A stretch of DNA of 64,000 nucleotides from positions 1 to 64,000 of the forward strand of contig NZ_SMAA01000014.1 in the NCBI RefSeq assembly GCF_004341685.1, written 5' to 3'. Positions 39,474 through 48,483 of the stretch are shown one piece after another (position 1 is the first letter of the stretch; the number at the start of each line of letters is the position of its first letter). The notes beneath the pieces were generated by a model. The model was not told the DNA's origin and ran no database searches. It saw nothing but the letters and a program-made list of their open reading frames with translations. A program made the translations under genes and the position numbers. This DNA comes from Pectinatus cerevisiiphilus (GTDB lineage Bacteria; Bacillota; Negativicutes; Selenomonadales; Selenomonadaceae).

Positions 39474-39863
39474 ATGCAGTATACAGATTTAATCGGTGTT
39501 CCGTTTAAGGACGGCGGCAGAGACAAAAATGGTCTGGATTGCTGGGGACTGGTGAAAATATTACTAGAGCGTCAGGGCTATAAGTATATTCAGGACTACG
39601 ATATATCCGCCTTTAACATCAAGGACATCCATGATGAGCTGGAAACAAACCGTCATACCTGGCGAAAAATAGAAAAACCAGAGGTGGGCTGTGTAATACT
39701 TTTAGCCAATGGCTGCACAGCGGCCGCAAACCATGTCGGCATTGTGGTGGATGATAGTAGGTTCATCCACGCCTATGCACGGACTGGTGTATGTGTTTCT
39801 ACGCTGAAACGCTGGCAGGCACATATTCTTGGCTTCTATCTGCCACCGGAGGTGATAACATGA
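39474..39863 (+). CDS. NlpC/P60 tail protein, lambda gpK-like
   Basis: The 129-residue product has the catalytic Cys in GLDCWGLV (near 23) and His in NHVGIVVDDSRFIHA (near 87), the NlpC/P60 pair. Lambda gpK has the same domain. It likely cleaves peptidoglycan during assembly or entry. AAAGGAGG lies 5 nt before the ATG chosen; an earlier ATG inside the gpL-like gene has none. It overlaps the J-like gene as ATGA. Confidence 0.82.
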   Translation: MQYTDLIGVPFKDGGRDKNGLDCWGLVKILLERQGYKYIQDYDISAFNIKDIHDELETNRHTWRKIEKPEVGCVILLANGCTAAANHVGIVVDDSRFIHAYARTGVCVSTLKRWQAHILGFYLPPEVIT

Positions 39864-42800
39864 TTCAGATTATTGTTGTAGAAAATCCCTTGGAACCTAA
39901 AATCCATGAAACCTATGATGCCTATTATTCAGGCAAAGACATCCGTTCCTACTATAACGTGACCGAGGCAAATAGTGTGTTTCTGAATGGTCAGCGGGTA
40001 AAAGATATGGATGGCACAATACCACAGGACGGAAGTCAGCTCATCATAACGCCATGTGTTGCTGGTGGTGACTTCGGTAAAATTCTAGGCTTTGTGGCAA
40101 TGGTCGCATTGACGGCATGGAGCGGGGCCATTCTTGGTGGTAGTGGTGTCTTTGGAATGGCGATTAAGGGATATACCTTCGGTGCGTATCTTGCCGCGGG
40201 TGCGGTGATGTATCTGGGCGGACGGCTTATAAACAGTGTCTTTCCGCAGCAGGCGGCCAATGTGGGTTGGCATGACTATGAGAAATCGCAGACCTACGGC
40301 TGGGATTTACCGACAGTTCAGACGATGGAAGGCGGTGTCATTGGCGAAACCTATGGCACCTGTATTCCGCAGCCGCAGCTTTTAGAGGAGCACGTTGAAA
40401 CAAGCGACCAGGACGGCAAGCAGTACCTAAATCTCTTGTACTGCGGCGGCTATGGTGAAATTGACAGCATCACAGATATTCGTATCGATAGTACACCTAT
40501 AGAGAATTATAGCAATGTCCAGCTTGAGACACGGCTTGGCACTAATGACCAGACGCCAATCAGTTTCTTTACTAATACACCGACAGACCAGTCTGTGGGG
40601 CTGATGCTGGATATAAATCAGCCGCTTATCCGTACCACAAATAGTACAGCGGCCTGCTCACTGGAGATTACGCTGGAGTGGAATAACGGTCTGTATCATC
40701 TGAATGATGACGGCAGCTACAGCAACGCCAGCATTTCCATTCAAGTAGAATATAAAAAAACAGGTATCCCGGATTGGACACTCTCGGGAAAATACACCTT
40801 CACAAACAGCAGCCCGGATGCCTTTAGACGCTCGGTCAAGATTGCCAGCAATATCGAGGCGGGGCAGTATGATGTCAAGGTCACGGCAGTCAGTAAGGAT
40901 TCTGGCAGCCGCAACATGACCATCACCTATTGGTCGATTCTCACCTCGTACAATAATGGCGTCTATGTCAGACCAAACAAGGTGCTGGTGGCCATGCGAA
41001 TACTGGCAACGAATCAGCTCAGCGGCGGTGTGCCAAATATCAACTGGCGGCAGACCCGCTCGAAGGTTTATGTTTATAACCCAAAGAAAAGTCAGTACGA
41101 GGTCAAGGCAGCGGATAATCCTATCTGGGCTGCCTATGATATTTTGCATGGCTGCCGCTATCTCAAGAATCTCAACACCGGCAAGAAAGAGTACGTGGTG
41201 TTTGGTTGTCAGCATCAGCAGCTTGATGCGTACTTCGAACAGTGGTGTGAGTCAGCAGCCTATGCAGATGAGCTGGTTCCGGATGAATACGGCGAGTTTG
41301 AAAAGAGGTATCTCTTTGATGCTTACTTCGATACCAGTCAGAAACGCTTCGAGGCAGCTACCAAAGCGGCTGCGGTAGGTCATTCCAGCATCATCATCCA
41401 CGGCACGAGATATGGCATCGTAACAGATAAGCCGGGGATGATTTCGCAGGTATTTGCTGAGGGCAGGACAACGGTATCCTCGGTCAAAGGTACCTTTACC
41501 TCCAAGGAAGAAAGAGCCAAGTCCGTAGAGCTTCAGTACAATGACCGCCACAATGACTTTAAGAACACAGTGTTCACGCTGCGGTCTAAGGATTGGGCAA
41601 GCGAGGACTGTCAGGACAATACGGCACAGCTGACTTTGTTCGGTGTAAGCCGGAGAAGCCAGGCATACCGCGAGGGCGTCAGAGCACTTGCCACCAATGA
41701 ACGCCAGCTGCAGTTCGTGGAGCTTTCCACGGATATTGATGGCCTGGTCTGTGAATATGGTGATATTGTCGGCTATGCCCATACCATTTCAAGAGTCGGC
41801 ATTGCCTCTGGCAGGCTCATTTCGGCTACAGCAAATACCATTACCTTGGATAAGGCGGTGACACTGGATGCGGGCAAGACCTATGAAATCTACGTAACGC
41901 TCGCCAATGATAAGCTGGAAAAGAAGGAAGTCGCAGCGCCTATGCAAACTATCACCACAGATACGCTGACCGTGACGGCTGCATTTTCTGACGTTCCAGC
42001 ACAGTATGATAACTACGCCTTTGGCGAAACCAACAAAGCCATCAAGCCATACCGGGTAGTCGGAGCGTCTCGTGATGGCGAAATGCTGGTTCAGCTCCAG
42101 CTTGCTGAATATGACGAATCTATCTATGCTACGGATATAAACTACGACCGCTACCCGCATATGGATTACACTAATTATGCTGGTCTCAGCGGGGACAAAA
42201 TCCAGTCTGAGGTGGCGGATTCTCTGGAGATAAACAGCCGCACCAATTATGTAAAGACAGAGGACGGCTATCAAATAATCATTACGAAAAAAGAGCCGGA
42301 CAATATCACCTATACTTTTCCAACTGAGCCGGATGTTATAGCCAATGGTCTCTTAAATATCTCGTTCGGCTCACGCGTTAGGACACTTGGCTATTATCGC
42401 CCGAATGATGGCGGCGGGGCAGAATACATCTGCCGCTATATTTATGATCCGCAGAATCATCCGTGGGCGCTTTACCTGGGTGAATCTGCGGAATACGAAT
42501 ACAAGGTGGTCACCGACGTTTCGGGCATCCCAATGACGAATGTCAGCGGCGATTATGTCTATGAAACAGACAGCGAAGGGAAAATGGTGGTTAATACCGA
42601 TGAGTTTGGCAATCCTAAGCGCCGTAAGATTTATGCGGTGATATGTGAAAAAGTAGTCAACTATCGGATGTTTGGGGCAAAGCTGGATGGCGTTACAGAC
42701 GATTACCAAGCCATCAAGGACTGCCATGATTACCAAATGAGCTGCTATGAGATTGAGCCGGAAAGCAAGCGCAAGCATTATCTGGTAAGCGTAGAAAATC

Positions 42801-45800
42801 ATCAGGGCATTATAAGAAAGGACAATAATGAGCCAATCACCTGTGCTGGGAACATCGATATTTCTGGCAGCAAGCTCTTAGTGCAGGACTGCAATGCTAC
42901 CTGGTTTGGTTTTTACCTTTGGGGAGATAATGAAGGGGACTTCATGACCTATGAGCCGCTGTACGAAACGAAGGAAACCTACCAGAAGGATAATTTCGTT
43001 ATTGGGACAGAGGGAAAGCTCAGTCAGCTGGGAAACAACTCGCTAATGTTCCTGAAGGAATCCAGCTATGCGGTGCGTGATGATGCCGGGTATCTCTATT
43101 CTGAGCCACGTTATGAATTGCTTTTCCACACCATGGATGGAATCCTTGCCAATCCCATCACCTATGACTGGTCGATTGCTGGCGGTCTTGAAATAAAGAC
43201 GCCAGTCTCAGACTATGTGACGCATGAGGTATCCACGGAGACGATAAACAGCCAGTTCGAGCTGTCCTATACACGGCTGCCAAATGCCCATTACAACTTT
43301 AAGGGCTGCCAGGTAAGGTTTGAGACCTCGGCAAATAAATACTGTTCAGTGCTGTGGTGCAAATGCCATAACGCCCATGTATCTGGCTTCAGCTTTTATC
43401 CCGACACCAATCAGATGCATAACACGGTATTCAAAAATACCATGATTTATATGTGGGGCTGCTACAATGCGGAGGTCTCAGATATTACCGGTTTCAATAA
43501 CTCCGGCAAAAGAGAGAATGGTGTTGATGCGACTTCTGGCTATGTCATACGTGCCACGAACTGTCTGAACCTCCATATCCATGACTGCCATGTGCAGGGC
43601 TATTGGGGGGCAACGGCAATGAATTGCGTGAAGGACGTGCATATTGAGCGTGTAAGCATCAACCGTCTGGATATCCATAACTATTTCTATAATCTCTACA
43701 TCGATCACTGCAACCTTTTCAATCATGCCATTCAGATTGGTGAGGGCAGAGGCATCTGTCAGATTACCAATAGCTGCTTTTACGTCAATTCACTTCCAGC
43801 CGACAGCTACCCTCATGCCCATATCCTGGAGCTGAATGCCACCTATGGACGGATATTCGAGGGCAAGATTCTCATAGATAACTGCAAGGCTTATTTGAAG
43901 GATGCAGAGGGAGGTGAGTTCGATGTCATAAAATGCGAGTTTTCACCGGAGGCTGTTTCGACCTTGGATACATTCAAGTGGCCGGAAACGACTATCCGGG
44001 AATGTAACTTCTTCTCGTATAACCCAGGAACCTATCTTGTGTACAATATGGTATCCGGTACTCGAAGCTGCAGGACTTCGACCAAGGCACCGACTAATGT
44101 CAAGGACTGGTGCAAAGATACAGGCAATGCGGATAGCGGCAAGCTCAACTGGAAATATCTCGGCCGCGGCCTTGACTGGGTGAATGACGGCAATACCGCA
44201 AATCATGAGGTGTACAAGGGCGAGATCATCCGCACCTATAAGACAACCATGACCAGTGATAATAAGACCGCCTTCTATGACAGGCATTATTTCGTGGTGG
44301 TGCAGGCGGGAAACCTGAACATCGCGGAAAAGCTCGAGACGAATATGCCAAGCGATTTATCCGGCAATGAATTTACCTATGGCACAGCAATCCTAAGGTA
44401 TGTGAAATGGTATGAATGGCAGGCAAATAAAAGCTATGTTGTTGGGGATTTCTGTTATGTGGAAAGCTCCATGTGGCTGCCGGTTTATTCGTGGGAGTGT
44501 GTTTCTGCAGGACTGTCCAATGGCTATCGCCCTGCACATACAGTGGGAACGGTGATCGAGGGCGAAGATATCTATCCGAAGAATCTCGATGCTTGCTGGT
44601 GGACGTATGCTGGACCAAAGGCAGATTTCGTGAATGTCGAATTCAAGCCGAATATGACAGTTGAAAAAGGCCAAATCATCTATGCTGACCATAAGCTTTA
44701 CAATGTTTTAGAGGCAGGAAAGCTGGATGCTATACCACCGCAGAATACGGCATGGAATGGCTCTTTTAAGCATGGCACGGCAATGCTGTCCTTTATCGGC
44801 AAGGAATGGTCGAGCAAGACCTGGTGGGCCAAGAATCACTACTGCATATCCGTTGACCGTAATGGTACTGAAGCAGTCTATAAGCTGGTCAAGCAGGACG
44901 GTACGACCTCCGGAGAATCACCAGTACGTGGAAATGCCCGCTGTGTGGATGGCGATATCATCTGGGAATGGACTTCAAGCGGGGATGACGGAAGTGCCTG
45001 GCTGCCGCAGACACGCTACAACGTAGGCGATATAGTTCATGCCAATGGGAATACCTATAAGTGTGTATTCGATGGCAGGCTTGAAATGCCATCACATATT
45101 ATTCTTGAAAACATCTCAACCAATATGACAGTTGGCGGAGATGTTTTTGCTTTCTATGAAGGAGGTACGGATGTACCCATAAGAACCAATTACTCTGGTA
45201 AGTGGACAATAAAGGTCGATAACGTGGAGCGGTATAGGTTCCGAGATTTTGCTGATGGATATTTTGGTGTCAGCTCGAATCCGCTGCCGACGATATATGG
45301 CTCTGGCGGCAGTTTGTCTGAGGGCTACAGCAAGACGGAGGTAGATGTGCTGCTTTCGGGCAAAGCAAATAAAGCTGCTGTCTACACCAGAGAGGAAATA
45401 GACAGGCTGCTTTCCGGCACTGAAGATGGCAAGGCTGATGAGACTAGCTATACGAAGGCTCAGGTGAATGCACTCCTAGCCAAGAAAGCTGACCTAGAGC
45501 ATGAACACAGCGAATATGCAACTGTGGCGGCTCTTGATAAGAAGCTCGATGCTGACGATCTACGTATCCATGCCAGCCGTCATATCGGTACCCATGATGT
45601 GGATGAAGCAGGACTGGCTGATGGCATGGCTATGTATTATGATGCAGCATCCAAGACCTACAAATTCAAGAAGGTCACGGCAGCAGATGAACCAGAAATC
45701 GACCCGCCAGCAGAGGATAAGGTGCCGCTCCAAACTATCATCTACACGAAATCTGTTTACTGCGATAAGACCTTTACGTCCCAAGAAGCTGATGCGGATT

Positions 45801-46525
45801 ACCAGTTCACCATTCCAGAGGGGGCAGAGAAGTTCCGTGTGGTTGCTGTTCCAGCTACTAGCGTGAGTATATCTGCAGATACTTATATTGAGTTTGTGAA
45901 TGCCGATGGAACGCTGGCAAAGAAAGTCAGCTGGTCTGAGGTGTCCGCTGATGGCATTATTGCTGACTGTACTGTTGGCAAGACCTATGCCTTCAAGTGT
46001 TCCATTACAACAAGCGGTGCGACAACGATTGCACTCTACGTTGATTGCGGTGAGAAGATCAACCAGCTCGTGGCCAATACTTCGAATGTTCCTGCGCTCG
46101 ATAGCAAGAAGGTAGAAGAGCCGCCGATAGAGGATGCTGTGCCACTGACTGTTTTGGCTACCAAGACACTTACGGCCAGTGGCTCTGGTACAGAGTATGC
46201 GTGTGAGGATTGGTCAGCGGGCAGTGAGTTCCAATTTACGATTCCCGTTAGTGTGACGAAATTCAGGTTCTCAGTAACGCCTGCAGATGCAACAGCAAGA
46301 ATCAGCAATGCAGATGTTACCTTTATCGATGCCGATTGGAACGCACAGGTAAAGATCAAGGCGCAAACGCCAGCCGTGCTAAGCTGCATAAAGGGGAAGA
46401 CCTATGCTTGGTGTATCTGGGTAGGTACGAATATGAAGACAGATGTTATTTGTAAGGTAGAGGTTGGCGGTGAGGTCGAGACTTCGGCTGTGACCGAGGC
46501 AACGGTAATACCTGCCTATAGCTGA
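39860..46525 (+). CDS. Giant tail-tip protein: gpI-like + gpJ-like + pectate-lyase-type spike fusion
   Basis: The 2,221-residue product joins several tail parts. Residues about 1-75 look like the ubiquitin-like gpI start and about 80-140 are glycine-rich and hydrophobic. A J-like host-specificity hub follows to about 900 (TYGWDLPTVQTMEGGVIGET near 147). Residues about 930-1440 open with GAKLDGVTDDYQAIKD, the start signature of pectate-lyase-type beta-helix tailspikes. Then come small carbohydrate-binding-like units (SYVVGDFCYV; RYNVGDIVHANGNTYKC), a fibre coiled coil (YTREEIDRLL; YTKAQVNALLAKKAD, about 1820-1880) and two tandem beta domains of about 110 residues (from 1954 and 2093). It recognises and perhaps digests the cell surface. 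GGAGGTG precedes the start. Confidence 0.85.
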   Translation: MIQIIVVENPLEPKIHETYDAYYSGKDIRSYYNVTEANSVFLNGQRVKDMDGTIPQDGSQLIITPCVAGGDFGKILGFVAMVALTAWSGAILGGSGVFGMAIKGYTFGAYLAAGAVMYLGGRLINSVFPQQAANVGWHDYEKSQTYGWDLPTVQTMEGGVIGETYGTCIPQPQLLEEHVETSDQDGKQYLNLLYCGGYGEIDSITDIRIDSTPIENYSNVQLETRLGTNDQTPISFFTNTPTDQSVGLMLDINQPLIRTTNSTAACSLEITLEWNNGLYHLNDDGSYSNASISIQVEYKKTGIPDWTLSGKYTFTNSSPDAFRRSVKIASNIEAGQYDVKVTAVSKDSGSRNMTITYWSILTSYNNGVYVRPNKVLVAMRILATNQLSGGVPNINWRQTRSKVYVYNPKKSQYEVKAADNPIWAAYDILHGCRYLKNLNTGKKEYVVFGCQHQQLDAYFEQWCESAAYADELVPDEYGEFEKRYLFDAYFDTSQKRFEAATKAAAVGHSSIIIHGTRYGIVTDKPGMISQVFAEGRTTVSSVKGTFTSKEERAKSVELQYNDRHNDFKNTVFTLRSKDWASEDCQDNTAQLTLFGVSRRSQAYREGVRALATNERQLQFVELSTDIDGLVCEYGDIVGYAHTISRVGIASGRLISATANTITLDKAVTLDAGKTYEIYVTLANDKLEKKEVAAPMQTITTDTLTVTAAFSDVPAQYDNYAFGETNKAIKPYRVVGASRDGEMLVQLQLAEYDESIYATDINYDRYPHMDYTNYAGLSGDKIQSEVADSLEINSRTNYVKTEDGYQIIITKKEPDNITYTFPTEPDVIANGLLNISFGSRVRTLGYYRPNDGGGAEYICRYIYDPQNHPWALYLGESAEYEYKVVTDVSGIPMTNVSGDYVYETDSEGKMVVNTDEFGNPKRRKIYAVICEKVVNYRMFGAKLDGVTDDYQAIKDCHDYQMSCYEIEPESKRKHYLVSVENHQGIIRKDNNEPITCAGNIDISGSKLLVQDCNATWFGFYLWGDNEGDFMTYEPLYETKETYQKDNFVIGTEGKLSQLGNNSLMFLKESSYAVRDDAGYLYSEPRYELLFHTMDGILANPITYDWSIAGGLEIKTPVSDYVTHEVSTETINSQFELSYTRLPNAHYNFKGCQVRFETSANKYCSVLWCKCHNAHVSGFSFYPDTNQMHNTVFKNTMIYMWGCYNAEVSDITGFNNSGKRENGVDATSGYVIRATNCLNLHIHDCHVQGYWGATAMNCVKDVHIERVSINRLDIHNYFYNLYIDHCNLFNHAIQIGEGRGICQITNSCFYVNSLPADSYPHAHILELNATYGRIFEGKILIDNCKAYLKDAEGGEFDVIKCEFSPEAVSTLDTFKWPETTIRECNFFSYNPGTYLVYNMVSGTRSCRTSTKAPTNVKDWCKDTGNADSGKLNWKYLGRGLDWVNDGNTANHEVYKGEIIRTYKTTMTSDNKTAFYDRHYFVVVQAGNLNIAEKLETNMPSDLSGNEFTYGTAILRYVKWYEWQANKSYVVGDFCYVESSMWLPVYSWECVSAGLSNGYRPAHTVGTVIEGEDIYPKNLDACWWTYAGPKADFVNVEFKPNMTVEKGQIIYADHKLYNVLEAGKLDAIPPQNTAWNGSFKHGTAMLSFIGKEWSSKTWWAKNHYCISVDRNGTEAVYKLVKQDGTTSGESPVRGNARCVDGDIIWEWTSSGDDGSAWLPQTRYNVGDIVHANGNTYKCVFDGRLEMPSHIILENISTNMTVGGDVFAFYEGGTDVPIRTNYSGKWTIKVDNVERYRFRDFADGYFGVSSNPLPTIYGSGGSLSEGYSKTEVDVLLSGKANKAAVYTREEIDRLLSGTEDGKADETSYTKAQVNALLAKKADLEHEHSEYATVAALDKKLDADDLRIHASRHIGTHDVDEAGLADGMAMYYDAASKTYKFKKVTAADEPEIDPPAEDKVPLQTIIYTKSVYCDKTFTSQEADADYQFTIPEGAEKFRVVAVPATSVSISADTYIEFVNADGTLAKKVSWSEVSADGIIADCTVGKTYAFKCSITTSGATTIALYVDCGEKINQLVANTSNVPALDSKKVEEPPIEDAVPLTVLATKTLTASGSGTEYACEDWSAGSEFQFTIPVSVTKFRFSVTPADATARISNADVTFIDADWNAQVKIKAQTPAVLSCIKGKTYAWCIWVGTNMKTDVICKVEVGGEVETSAVTEATVIPAYS

Positions 46526-46983: not shown

Positions 46984-47519
46984 AGATTTTTATCAATCCA
47001 GGGCATGCGCCAAACGGTCAGCCGGATCCAGGTGCCTGCAATAAATATACTGGGCTGCAGGAAAGTGAGGTGGCATTCTGTGTAGGTGAGAAGACAGCAG
47101 ATTATCTTAATGCTGTCGGCATCGAGACGGAAAGTTTGCAGTCGGATAGTTTGGCGGAGGTATGTATTGCGGCAAATGCCAGCGGAGCAGATTTTTTTAT
47201 TTCCGTCCATTGCAATAGCGCCAACACAACTTCCGCCAATGGCACAGAAACCTGGGCATGCGCAGGCTCGGCTGAGGGAAGGAAGCTTGCCCAGTGCATC
47301 AATGACCAGATTGTTGACGCTCTTGGCACCACTGACCGCGGGGTGAAGATTGCCGCGCCAGGAATCAACGGCTTGTATGTTCTCAGCAATACAGATATGC
47401 CGGCGGTGCTCGTAGAGCTTGCTTTCATCTCGAATGCTGAGGATGTGGTGCTTCTTACCGAGCAGCAGGATGAGTTTGCCCGAGCCATTGCCCGTGGTGT
47501 GACGGATTATTTCAATTGA
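46980..47519 (+). CDS. N-acetylmuramoyl-L-alanine amidase (endolysin, Amidase_3)
   Basis: The 179-residue product contains INPGHAPNG (His9), GLQESEVAF (Glu near 29), SVHCNSA (His near 79) and MPAVLVELAF (catalytic Glu). It is the lysis enzyme, lacking a signal peptide and so dependent on the holin. It is related to the amidase at 22.7 kb. It overlaps the holin stop by 4 bp and is followed by the spanin-like pair. Confidence 0.9.
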   Translation: MKIFINPGHAPNGQPDPGACNKYTGLQESEVAFCVGEKTADYLNAVGIETESLQSDSLAEVCIAANASGADFFISVHCNSANTTSANGTETWACAGSAEGRKLAQCINDQIVDALGTTDRGVKIAAPGINGLYVLSNTDMPAVLVELAFISNAEDVVLLTEQQDEFARAIARGVTDYFN

Positions 47520-47529
47520 GGTGGTGGAC

Positions 47530-47901
47530 GTGAATGATAGGACTAAAAAAATTCTGGTGGCTATTGTTGTTGCTGTTATTGTCTGTGCCGCAGCTTTCCT
47601 TTGCAGCCGAAGCAGAGCCGATGTACCAGATAACGGAAACCGAGCTGATGACGCTCGAGAACAACTTGAACGAGCTAGACTCAATCAACAAGCAGCAGAA
47701 GGACAGCTTGATGAAGCTTCAGACACAGCTAAAGACCTCGGAGGAGAGATTACAGGCATCCGAGAAGAAGTCCATGAAGCTCGAATTACAGCTGACGGGA
47801 TTAAAGAAGACAATGACCGAGCAGGACGGCTTATTACAGAATGCCGAGAAATCCTTGAACGAGTCCATCGCCGAGGAGAAAGCCAAGCAGGCGAGAACTA
47901 A
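47530..47901 (+). CDS. i-spanin-like (Rz-type) protein: membrane anchor plus coiled coil
   Basis: The 123-residue product MNDRTKKILVAIVVAVIV has one N-terminal membrane helix (about 8-26) and then a long charged coiled coil (ADDAREQLERARLNQQAAEG...AGRLITECREILERVHRRGE). That is the layout of Rz inner-membrane spanins. GTG start after GAGGTG at good spacing. It directly follows the endolysin gene. Nearly all of it is read in a second frame by the next entry. Spanins span the periplasm to the outer membrane in diderm bacteria. Annotated by layout and place, not by sequence match. Confidence 0.65.
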   Translation: MNDRTKKILVAIVVAVIVCAAAFLCSRSRADVPDNGNRADDAREQLERARLNQQAAEGQLDEASDTAKDLGGEITGIREEVHEARITADGIKEDNDRAGRLITECREILERVHRRGESQAGEN

Positions 47902-47965
47902 GCGTGAGAGAAACTTAGCGTATGGAATTTTAGGAATCTTGCTGTACGCCTATATACAGAAATGA
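47534..47965 (+). CDS. Overlapping out-of-frame secreted coiled-coil protein (spanin-partner candidate)
   Basis: In the +1 frame relative to the Rz-like gene, starting 4 nt after its GTG, a 143-codon frame reads MIGLKKFWWLLLLLLLSVPQ, then SFAAEAEP. This is a textbook signal peptide with a signal peptidase I site near 25-26. A long coiled coil follows (about 35-120, LENNLNELDSINKQQKDSL) and a C-terminal hydrophobic segment (NLAYGILGILLYAYIQK). There is no lipobox cysteine, unlike Rz1, so it may anchor by its C-terminal helix. It ends 64 bp past the Rz-like gene, right before the terminator. Confidence 0.6.
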   Translation: MIGLKKFWWLLLLLLLSVPQLSFAAEAEPMYQITETELMTLENNLNELDSINKQQKDSLMKLQTQLKTSEERLQASEKKSMKLELQLTGLKKTMTEQDGLLQNAEKSLNESIAEEKAKQARTKRERNLAYGILGILLYAYIQK

Positions 47966-48018: not shown

Positions 48019-48483
48019 TTAAGGAATTGCTGATAAATCAACAGTTTCCAATCATTGATTTATCCACAAGTCGATTTTTGAAATTAACTTGCATTAAATT
48101 CATTAATCGATGCTTTGGGCACATCCATTCTCCGGCCTTTCTGATTTAGGGAGGTATTTCCCTAAATCTAGACAAACCTATCCAAGGACTGCACCAAATT
48201 CTTTCTGTCGTCCAGCCCTTATGCACAGTACCAGATTTGCTGAAGCAAACAACAGTTGAAACATCTGGTAGTTCTTTTTCAATCCACGGTATTTTGTTTT
48301 CCTGCATTTGAAAAAATTCTTTATGATGTGGAATGGATGCTCTACTTTACAACGTATGGAAGATTTTTCATGCTCAATCAGTTTATCCCAGTTCATCCCT
48401 TCATAAATTTCTGTCAAGTGATTCTGGGACGGACGCTTGGCAACGCGAAAATCTACGCAGTATGATCCGAAAATTCTTGGCAA
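48019..48483 (-). pseudogene. IS5-family transposase C-terminal fragment
   Basis: Leftward, residues DFRVAKRPSQNHLTEIYEG...RCKVEHPFHIIKNFF...KTKYRGLKKN match the C-terminal third of IS5-type DDE transposases; Glu in KVEHPF is the catalytic Glu. The first two Asp are absent, and the frame is fused upstream to unrelated sequence (MPRIFGSYC). About 150 bp of IS end sequence (with GGAATTGCTGATAAATC) lies between it and the phage terminator. A dead fragment abutting the right edge of the prophage. Confidence 0.65.

Follow-up and report, generated by a model that had tools for sequence, protein, structure and literature searches.

Two almost completely overlapping genes in a Negativicutes lysis cassette, probably a two-component spanin that lacks a lipoprotein

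The window, a 64,000-nucleotide stretch of a Pectinatus cerevisiiphilus contig (NZ_SMAA01000014.1), contains a holin gene and an amidase gene, and directly downstream of these lie two open reading frames, A and B, that occupy nearly the same DNA (Table 1). The stretch common to A and B, 47534-47901, has a length of 368 nt and makes up 99% of A. The B frame is +1 relative to A, like that of Rz1 relative to Rz. In the window sequence, a GAGGTGG lies 5 nt 5′ of the A start and 9 nt 5′ of the B start, and a similar purine-rich stretch was seen by eye ahead of the starts in many relatives. The original prediction, made from the window alone, described two believable proteins encoded in different frames of the same stretch after holin and amidase, with starts 4 nt apart: A, an Rz-like membrane anchor plus coiled coil, and B, a longer partner with a signal peptide, a coiled coil and a C-terminal hydrophobic segment, and without a lipobox. 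The outline has held up. Both ORFs are open, with starts at 47530 (A) and 47534 (B), and 94 of 96 relatives keep the overlap; the holin and amidase are recognized by Pfam and PHROG, and lysis domains are encoded upstream of most relatives; the features of A and B are taken up below. Just 5′ of the holin gene is a single ORF of 2244 aa (39791-46525), probably encoding a fused tail or host-binding protein. Just 3′ of the A/B pair, on the minus strand, is a 101-aa ORF (48178-48483), which we take to resemble the C-terminal remnant of an IS5-type transposase.

Table 1. Features of the A/B locus, in window coordinates.
Feature	Position	Strand	Basis
Holin, Phage_holin_4_1 family, 145 aa	46546..46983	+	Pfam 9.4e-23; PHROG holin 2.5e-16
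Endolysin, Amidase_3, 179 aa	46980..47519	+	Pfam 1.4e-38; PHROG endolysin 6.4e-57
GAGGTGG, putative ribosome-binding site common to A and B	47518..47524	+	Read from sequence
Gene A, i-spanin-like: N-terminal TM and predicted periplasmic coiled coil; GTG start, 123 aa	47530..47901	+	ORF; profile conservation; TM and heptad signal stronger than in synonymous recodings of B
A transmembrane segment, residues 8-25, ILVAIVVAVIVCAAAFLC	47551..47604	+	Sequence; A N-terminal KD19 at least 1.6 in 92/94 loci
Gene B, proposed outer-membrane partner: signal peptide, long helix, C-terminal tail; ATG start, 143 aa	47534..47965	+	ORF; relatives across the class; AlphaFold2 model
B signal peptide, residues 1-24; signal peptidase I cleavage after SFA proposed (inferred)	47534..47605	+	Read from sequence; lipobox-like motif absent in 90/94 relatives
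B single continuous helix, residues 35-142	47636..47959	+	AlphaFold2, 55 sequences, pLDDT 97-98 in most helix blocks
B C-terminal hydrophobic tail, residues 127-143, after K/R-rich stretch; proposed outer-membrane anchor (location inferred)	47912..47962	+	Pattern in relatives, hydropathy, K/R counts

Taken alone, the window is no proof of an overlap, because in 10% of 2000 synonymous recodings of B the A frame was equally long (p = 0.10). This result leaves room for the reading that only B is a gene and that A has been left open by base composition; the relatives of B speak against it. These are 96 loci from 79 genomes and 18 families, near-full-length B matches picked by eye among the matches listed, with A ignored. 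Relics and partial matches (L010, L013, L015, L016, L025, L026, and L027) and unrelated long ORFs (L023 and L024) were excluded, and L018 was entered as L154. In these loci, chosen by B only, an A frame open across 90 or more codons of B is present in 94 of 96, and a third frame of that length in 0 of 96; the median open stretches are 123 and 13 codons, respectively. In each of the remaining two loci, L092 and L103, a single stop interrupts B while A is intact; both were left out of all tests on 94 loci. When B was recoded synonymously at the 94 loci, the longest open stretch in the A frame, with a median of 118 codons, compared with a shuffle mean of 65. In this test, p ≤ 0.05 was reached by the A frame at 71 of 94 loci and by the third frame at 4 of 94, although the p-values are not independent across loci, since the loci are related. 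In the reverse test, in which A was recoded and the openness of B was asked, 33 of 94 loci gave p ≤ 0.05. Contigs from virus collections had both frames open in seven of seven cases, of which five are additional, as the B proteins of L230 and L233 are identical to those of loci already counted.

B runs a median of 21 codons beyond the A stop (94 loci, the order being reversed in two), so the B tail is encoded in largely unshared DNA; in the window, its hydrophobic stretch lies entirely outside the overlap. A rough start-calling script placed the A and B starts 4 nt apart in 48 of 94 loci and at a spacing of −2 in nine, the remainder being other or unassigned.

Sequence comparison indicates that A is also selected for itself; four tests say so, openness among them. 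With a profile built from the A proteins of 73 loci outside the home family, each of the 21 A proteins of that family outscores the whole set of 200 recodings made from its own B (z 4.7–7.6), and the window A scores 92.5 bits against 71.6 for the best of its 200 B recodings. For 20 close pairs, relative substitution rates within the overlap are 4.51 where neither protein is changed, 1.55 where only A is changed, 0.88 where only B is changed, and 0.74 where both are changed; at the B-only end of the same pairs, the rates are 2.66 for silent and 0.83 for changing substitutions. For C-T transitions at third positions of B, B-silent changes occur at a rate of 0.077 if they alter A, 0.236 if they do not (only 36 sites), and 0.171 at the B-only end, and the bootstrap intervals of both differences exclude zero. 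The interval of the same kind of comparison for A-G transitions includes zero (−0.110 to 0.006). Changes that would introduce a stop into A were not used because this would be circular, A being open in both sequences by requirement. Finally, with B recoded, the N-terminal hydropathy of A exceeds the shuffle mean in 92 of 94 loci and its 3.5-residue periodicity does so in 90 of 94. About half of the heptad signal of A is forced by B (shuffle 1.15 of the observed 2.10), which may explain how two coils can share the same DNA.

The pair thus has both frames open and constrained across relatives. The original prediction had proposed that constraint be computed in both frames over homologous loci, and had stated that homologues with one frame broken by stops or free of constraint would leave a single gene. 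The profile and substitution tests find the constraint, and the broken-frame matches among those inspected look like decayed or truncated copies. Among them are L092 and L103 with their single stop in B, the relics L013 and L015, in which B also contains stops, and the 5′-truncated L016, L025, and L026. Furthermore, 18 of 55 A proteins match an existing family, phrog_18860 (best E 1.5e-44), their commonest PHROG, which has no assigned function and says nothing about an overlapping partner. The openness, profile, substitution, and transmembrane and heptad tests rule out, as far as sequence allows, a single-gene artefact in which A is not a gene, and we give the B-only reading virtually no credence. 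A and B are two real, jointly constrained overlapping genes in a lysis cassette.

Protein A has a strong N-terminal transmembrane segment (KD19 median 2.40) followed by a heptad-periodic domain (period 3.50). It meets the description of an inner-membrane subunit with an N-terminal TMD and a periplasmic coiled coil, a topology that is predicted only. HMM searches of each protein had been put forward as a check in the original prediction. Some A proteins weakly match Rz-like families: the 55 A proteins match 22 PHROGs at E ≤ 1e-3, and nine of the 22 are annotated as Rz-like spanin. These matches are weak (best E from 4.3e-8 to 7.2e-4, with 14 member matches in total), and coiled coils match promiscuously. 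The window A reaches phrog_18860 at E 0.011 and Rz-like families at E 0.019 and 0.31. B matches mixed coiled-coil PHROGs, two of them Rz-like among the 25 listed of 29. The Pfam and NCBIfam scans of A and B returned only generic coiled-coil matches among the matches listed, and a Foldseek search of the B model against the PDB found no match.

Protein B of the window starts with MIGLKKFWWLLLLLLLSVPQLSFAAEAE and lacks a Cys at the cleavage site; its C-terminus is a hydrophobic segment plus Lys. AlphaFold2 models residues 35-142 as one continuous helix (mean pLDDT 91.8, pTM 0.57). A lipobox-like motif is found in just 4 of 94 B proteins, that is, at the end of the signal peptide, the expected place, in L028 and within the hydrophobic core in L100, L112, and L142; the window B has none. 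We considered B as a lipoprotein and rejected this, as follows. In 66 of 94 B proteins, the region after the hydrophobic core does contain a Cys, but the last such Cys is usually preceded by T, L, I, F, or P, and by G, A, or S in only 7 of the 66. Where read by eye, the codons of the Cys region of B coincide with those of W-[YF]-L in A.

The pair is distributed across the Negativicutes genomes examined and is not local, the name of the class being taken from named loci and by inference. A tblastn search with B gave matches in 22 of 189 genomes of the family, and, among 380 genomes of the class, a profile of 15 aligned B proteins had matches in 134 at E ≤ 1e-3 and in 81 at E ≤ 1e-10. In a draw of 299 genomes from the phylum, the same profile reached E ≤ 1e-10 in three, all of the own class and at 5e-15 or better. 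Weak matches to the profile are noise, because 55 of the 299 match at E ≤ 1e-3; those outside the class are at 5.3e-7 or weaker and are mostly parts of the model inside longer ORFs. Searching with the window amidase, we found the pair in 4 of 40 named loci, including Acidaminococcus fermentans (L202, very probably a genome already counted), Veillonella sp. 3891 (L205), and a Phascolarctobacterium MAG (L208). It is absent from the other 36 amidase loci, which include MAG contigs of Selenomonadaceae, Gastranaerophilales, Armatimonadota, and ‘Peptococcaceae’, some of the loci being truncated at contig ends. The fourth locus with the pair, L189, comes from a MAG that bears the label of the monoderm Lachnospiraceae; its lysis cassette is a near-copy of that in the window, with 90% identity between the amidases, and the contig is probably misbinned. 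Among phage records, tblastn found nothing with A or B of the window, with B of L130, L134, or L145, or with A of L145; with B of L077, it found a single unannotated record, MT836582.1, in which both frames are present. Plasmid records searched by tblastn with the window B gave nothing.

In the window and in most relatives, the A/B pair adjoins holin or endolysin genes. A Pfam scan of 93 upstream ORFs found Amidase_3 in 25, Amidase_2 in 19, GH25 in 13, VgrG3-like_C in 4, glucosaminidase in 1, and a holin domain in 6, with multiple matches per member possible. Up to 62 of the 93 have a wall-hydrolase domain, VgrG3-like_C being one in our assumption. At least a quarter of these upstream ORFs, which were picked mechanically, have no lysis domain, and 3 of 96 loci have no upstream ORF in range. 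An overlapping pair with another role at the envelope, be it lysis timing, endolysin control, or superinfection exclusion, would be compatible with the position in the lysis cassette and the envelope-facing design, and the upstream ORFs without a lysis domain leave it some room. Such a role is quite improbable in our estimate, as strong matches in the phylum draw come only from the outer-membrane-bearing class (the envelope of the other genomes is not given), and an exported coil coupled with a membrane-anchored coil fits a bridge between membranes best.

The reading of A and B as a spanin, that is, as such a bridge, presupposes a host with an outer membrane, and the original prediction had pointed out that Negativicutes fit. 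In agreement, Omp85 was found in 21 of 21 genomes, the own genome included. LolA was found in 0 of 41 relatives by a search whose control was positive in E. coli and others. Since the control was also positive in two archaea, the model is broad, and the absence of LolA from the 41 genomes is not due to a narrow model. Diderm Terrabacteria, Halanaerobia excepted, lack outer-membrane lipoproteins and the Lol pathway, according to the available part of a published review (PMC11784454). A lipoprotein o-spanin should fail in hosts of this kind. Thus, the missing lipobox of B is likely explained by hosts that show no LolA and that belong to bacteria reported, in what was accessible of the same source, to be without outer-membrane lipoproteins (PMC11784454).

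The comparison with λ Rz/Rz1 is instructive. In both systems, the genes sit in the lysis cassette of a phage whose host has an outer membrane, an inner-membrane subunit has an N-terminal TM segment and a periplasmic coil, and the partner is read in the +1 frame relative to the inner-membrane gene. This frame does not by itself mark a spanin, since 116 cases in the −1 frame are given in the portion of the spanin survey at hand (PMC6139136). In contrast to Rz1, B is longer than the i-spanin-like A, starts 4 nt after it, contains nearly all of it, has no lipobox, and ends in a hydrophobic tail; the same portion of the survey places the o-spanin start at about 0.4–0.5 of the i-spanin length in ~70% of embedded pairs (PMC6139136). 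The unimolecular spanin gp11 of phage T1, as described there, resembles B in its C-terminal hydrophobic helix and differs in that B has no N-terminal lipobox and is accompanied by a second gene (PMC6139136). Neither definition is met: the outer-membrane subunit is not a lipoprotein by its sequence, as Rz/Rz1 would require, and the combination of N-terminal lipobox and C-terminal TMD that marks T1 gp11 fails on the lipobox in 90 of 94 B proteins and on the hydropathy of the tail, below that of a usual TM segment, in 71 of 94. By the lipoprotein criterion, the pair is not a member of the Rz/Rz1 kind, even if it works like a spanin, as we read it. As far as the text obtained of the two surveys goes, two-component and unimolecular spanins are defined by an outer-membrane lipoprotein (PMC6139136), and o- and u-spanin candidates without a lipobox were discarded, spanins being reported absent from phages of Gram-positive hosts (PMC12596118). 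Such a requirement would hide the A/B family. A search by title and abstract, which excluded most subscription papers and bioRxiv, found no published description of such a pair.

The B tail is central to the interpretation. Its pattern recurs in relatives, namely, K/R-rich residues, often with Q-R-N, then ~16 weakly hydrophobic residues and a terminal K or R; 88 of 94 have K or R at one or both of the last two positions. The tail has a median KD17 of 1.32, with values below 1.6 in 71 of 94 and of at least 1.6 in 23 of 94, and the 18 residues ahead of it contain on average 5.9 K/R and 3.1 D/E (94 loci). A tail below the hydropathy of a usual TM segment might pass the inner membrane. Thermotoga Omp-alpha, a coiled-coil outer-membrane tether and a host envelope protein, has a periplasmic helical rod and a C-terminal hydrophobic outer-membrane anchor; by analogy, B would share the rod and the anchor, and it differs in being a phage protein.

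In the B protein of L119, the usual tail is replaced by a β-like tail that is similar to the end of a second family of proteins (E 1.5e-6, 35% identity over 48 residues); the B protein of L154 has another β-like tail, with Phe at the end. The second family consists of single ORFs of ~200 aa with an N-terminal TM segment, an LNQYN motif, and a five-strand C-terminal sheet (L159, L160, L187, and L161-L186; e.g., L160:1498-2109:-). The five strands are modelled by AlphaFold2 with a pLDDT of 91.5, and the last residue is aromatic in 20 of 23 aligned members. This family was matched in 28 of 379 genomes of the class, including that of L119. It occupies the same lysis slot as the A/B pair, an endolysin-like ORF lying just upstream in about two thirds of the 26 loci listed, as judged by eye and without a Pfam scan. 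Foldseek searches of the PDB and BFVD gave no match with E ≤ 0.001, and the membrane domains of trimeric autotransporters (9vnj, 2gr7, and 2gr8) appeared only among the weak PDB rows. We regard the family as a candidate for a one-gene, lipid-free spanin.

We propose that A and B probably form a two-component spanin adapted to hosts without sorting of lipoproteins to the outer membrane, with the B tail as the outer-membrane anchor. In this mechanism, the two starts, separated by 4 nt and in different frames, would depend on one ribosome-binding site. The N-terminal TM segment of A would anchor it in the inner membrane, with the coiled coil of A projecting into the periplasm, while B would be exported by way of a cleavable signal peptide and form one long helix, whose K/R-rich, weakly hydrophobic C-terminal tail would insert into the outer membrane and so substitute for a lipid. 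The coils of A and B would bind each other. Following cleavage of the cell wall by the endolysin, the complex may draw the membranes together and disrupt the outer one, as proposed for Rz/Rz1. The shared initiation, the A–B complex, the tail in the outer membrane, and the role in membrane fusion and lysis are all inferred. The suggestion, also made originally, that the pair is a new spanin class therefore remains an inference, as there is no experiment and its function has not been shown.

The weakest link is the outer-membrane location of the tail, which we infer to be likely in the absence of localization data. It rests on the low hydropathy, the K/R residues on the side that would be periplasmic, and the domain swap in L119. 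That Foldseek found no significant match for the β domain counts against it. Alternatively, B may be an inner-membrane protein whose tail stops beside A, the complex reaching the outer membrane through one of its proteins, for instance, the wall tether OmpM, or through lipid. In the model, the long helix includes the tail, 23 of the 94 tails are as hydrophobic as a usual TM segment, and T1-type u-spanins have a C-terminal inner-membrane TMD, as stated in the available part of the survey (PMC6139136). However, the charges would then be reversed, with the K/R excess in the 18 residues on the would-be periplasmic side; most tails are only weakly hydrophobic; and a β-like C-terminus takes the place of the tail in L119 and L154. 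An inner-membrane B is thus doubtful in our judgement, though it deserves to be kept in mind.

If the spanin reading with an outer-membrane tail is true, the lipoprotein rule reflects the host and not the mechanism, and another anchor is used where the host cannot place lipoproteins in the outer membrane. The pair would then be a test case for the entry of an α-helical tail into the outer membrane and a concrete entry to the study of how phages exit from Negativicutes, among whose members Veillonella, Acidaminococcus, and Phascolarctobacterium have loci with the pair. In addition, it offers numerous instances of two conserved proteins encoded almost wholly by the same DNA. We incline, with real reservation, to a broader hypothesis: phages of diderm Firmicutes may have evolved lipid-free disruptors of the outer membrane since their hosts never acquired outer-membrane lipoprotein sorting. 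These would be the class-wide, near-fully overlapping A/B pair with its helical-tail anchor and, in the same slot, the one-gene TM-to-β-sheet protein, the two having exchanged C-terminal anchors. The A/B pair may rank among the most complete conserved same-strand overlaps of two genes for folded proteins, one 21-nt repeat encoding heptads in both frames. Over the 94 loci, A and B both peak at a period of 3.50 residues; a 21-nt periodicity can serve two coiled coils, and this may ease the origin of such overlaps.
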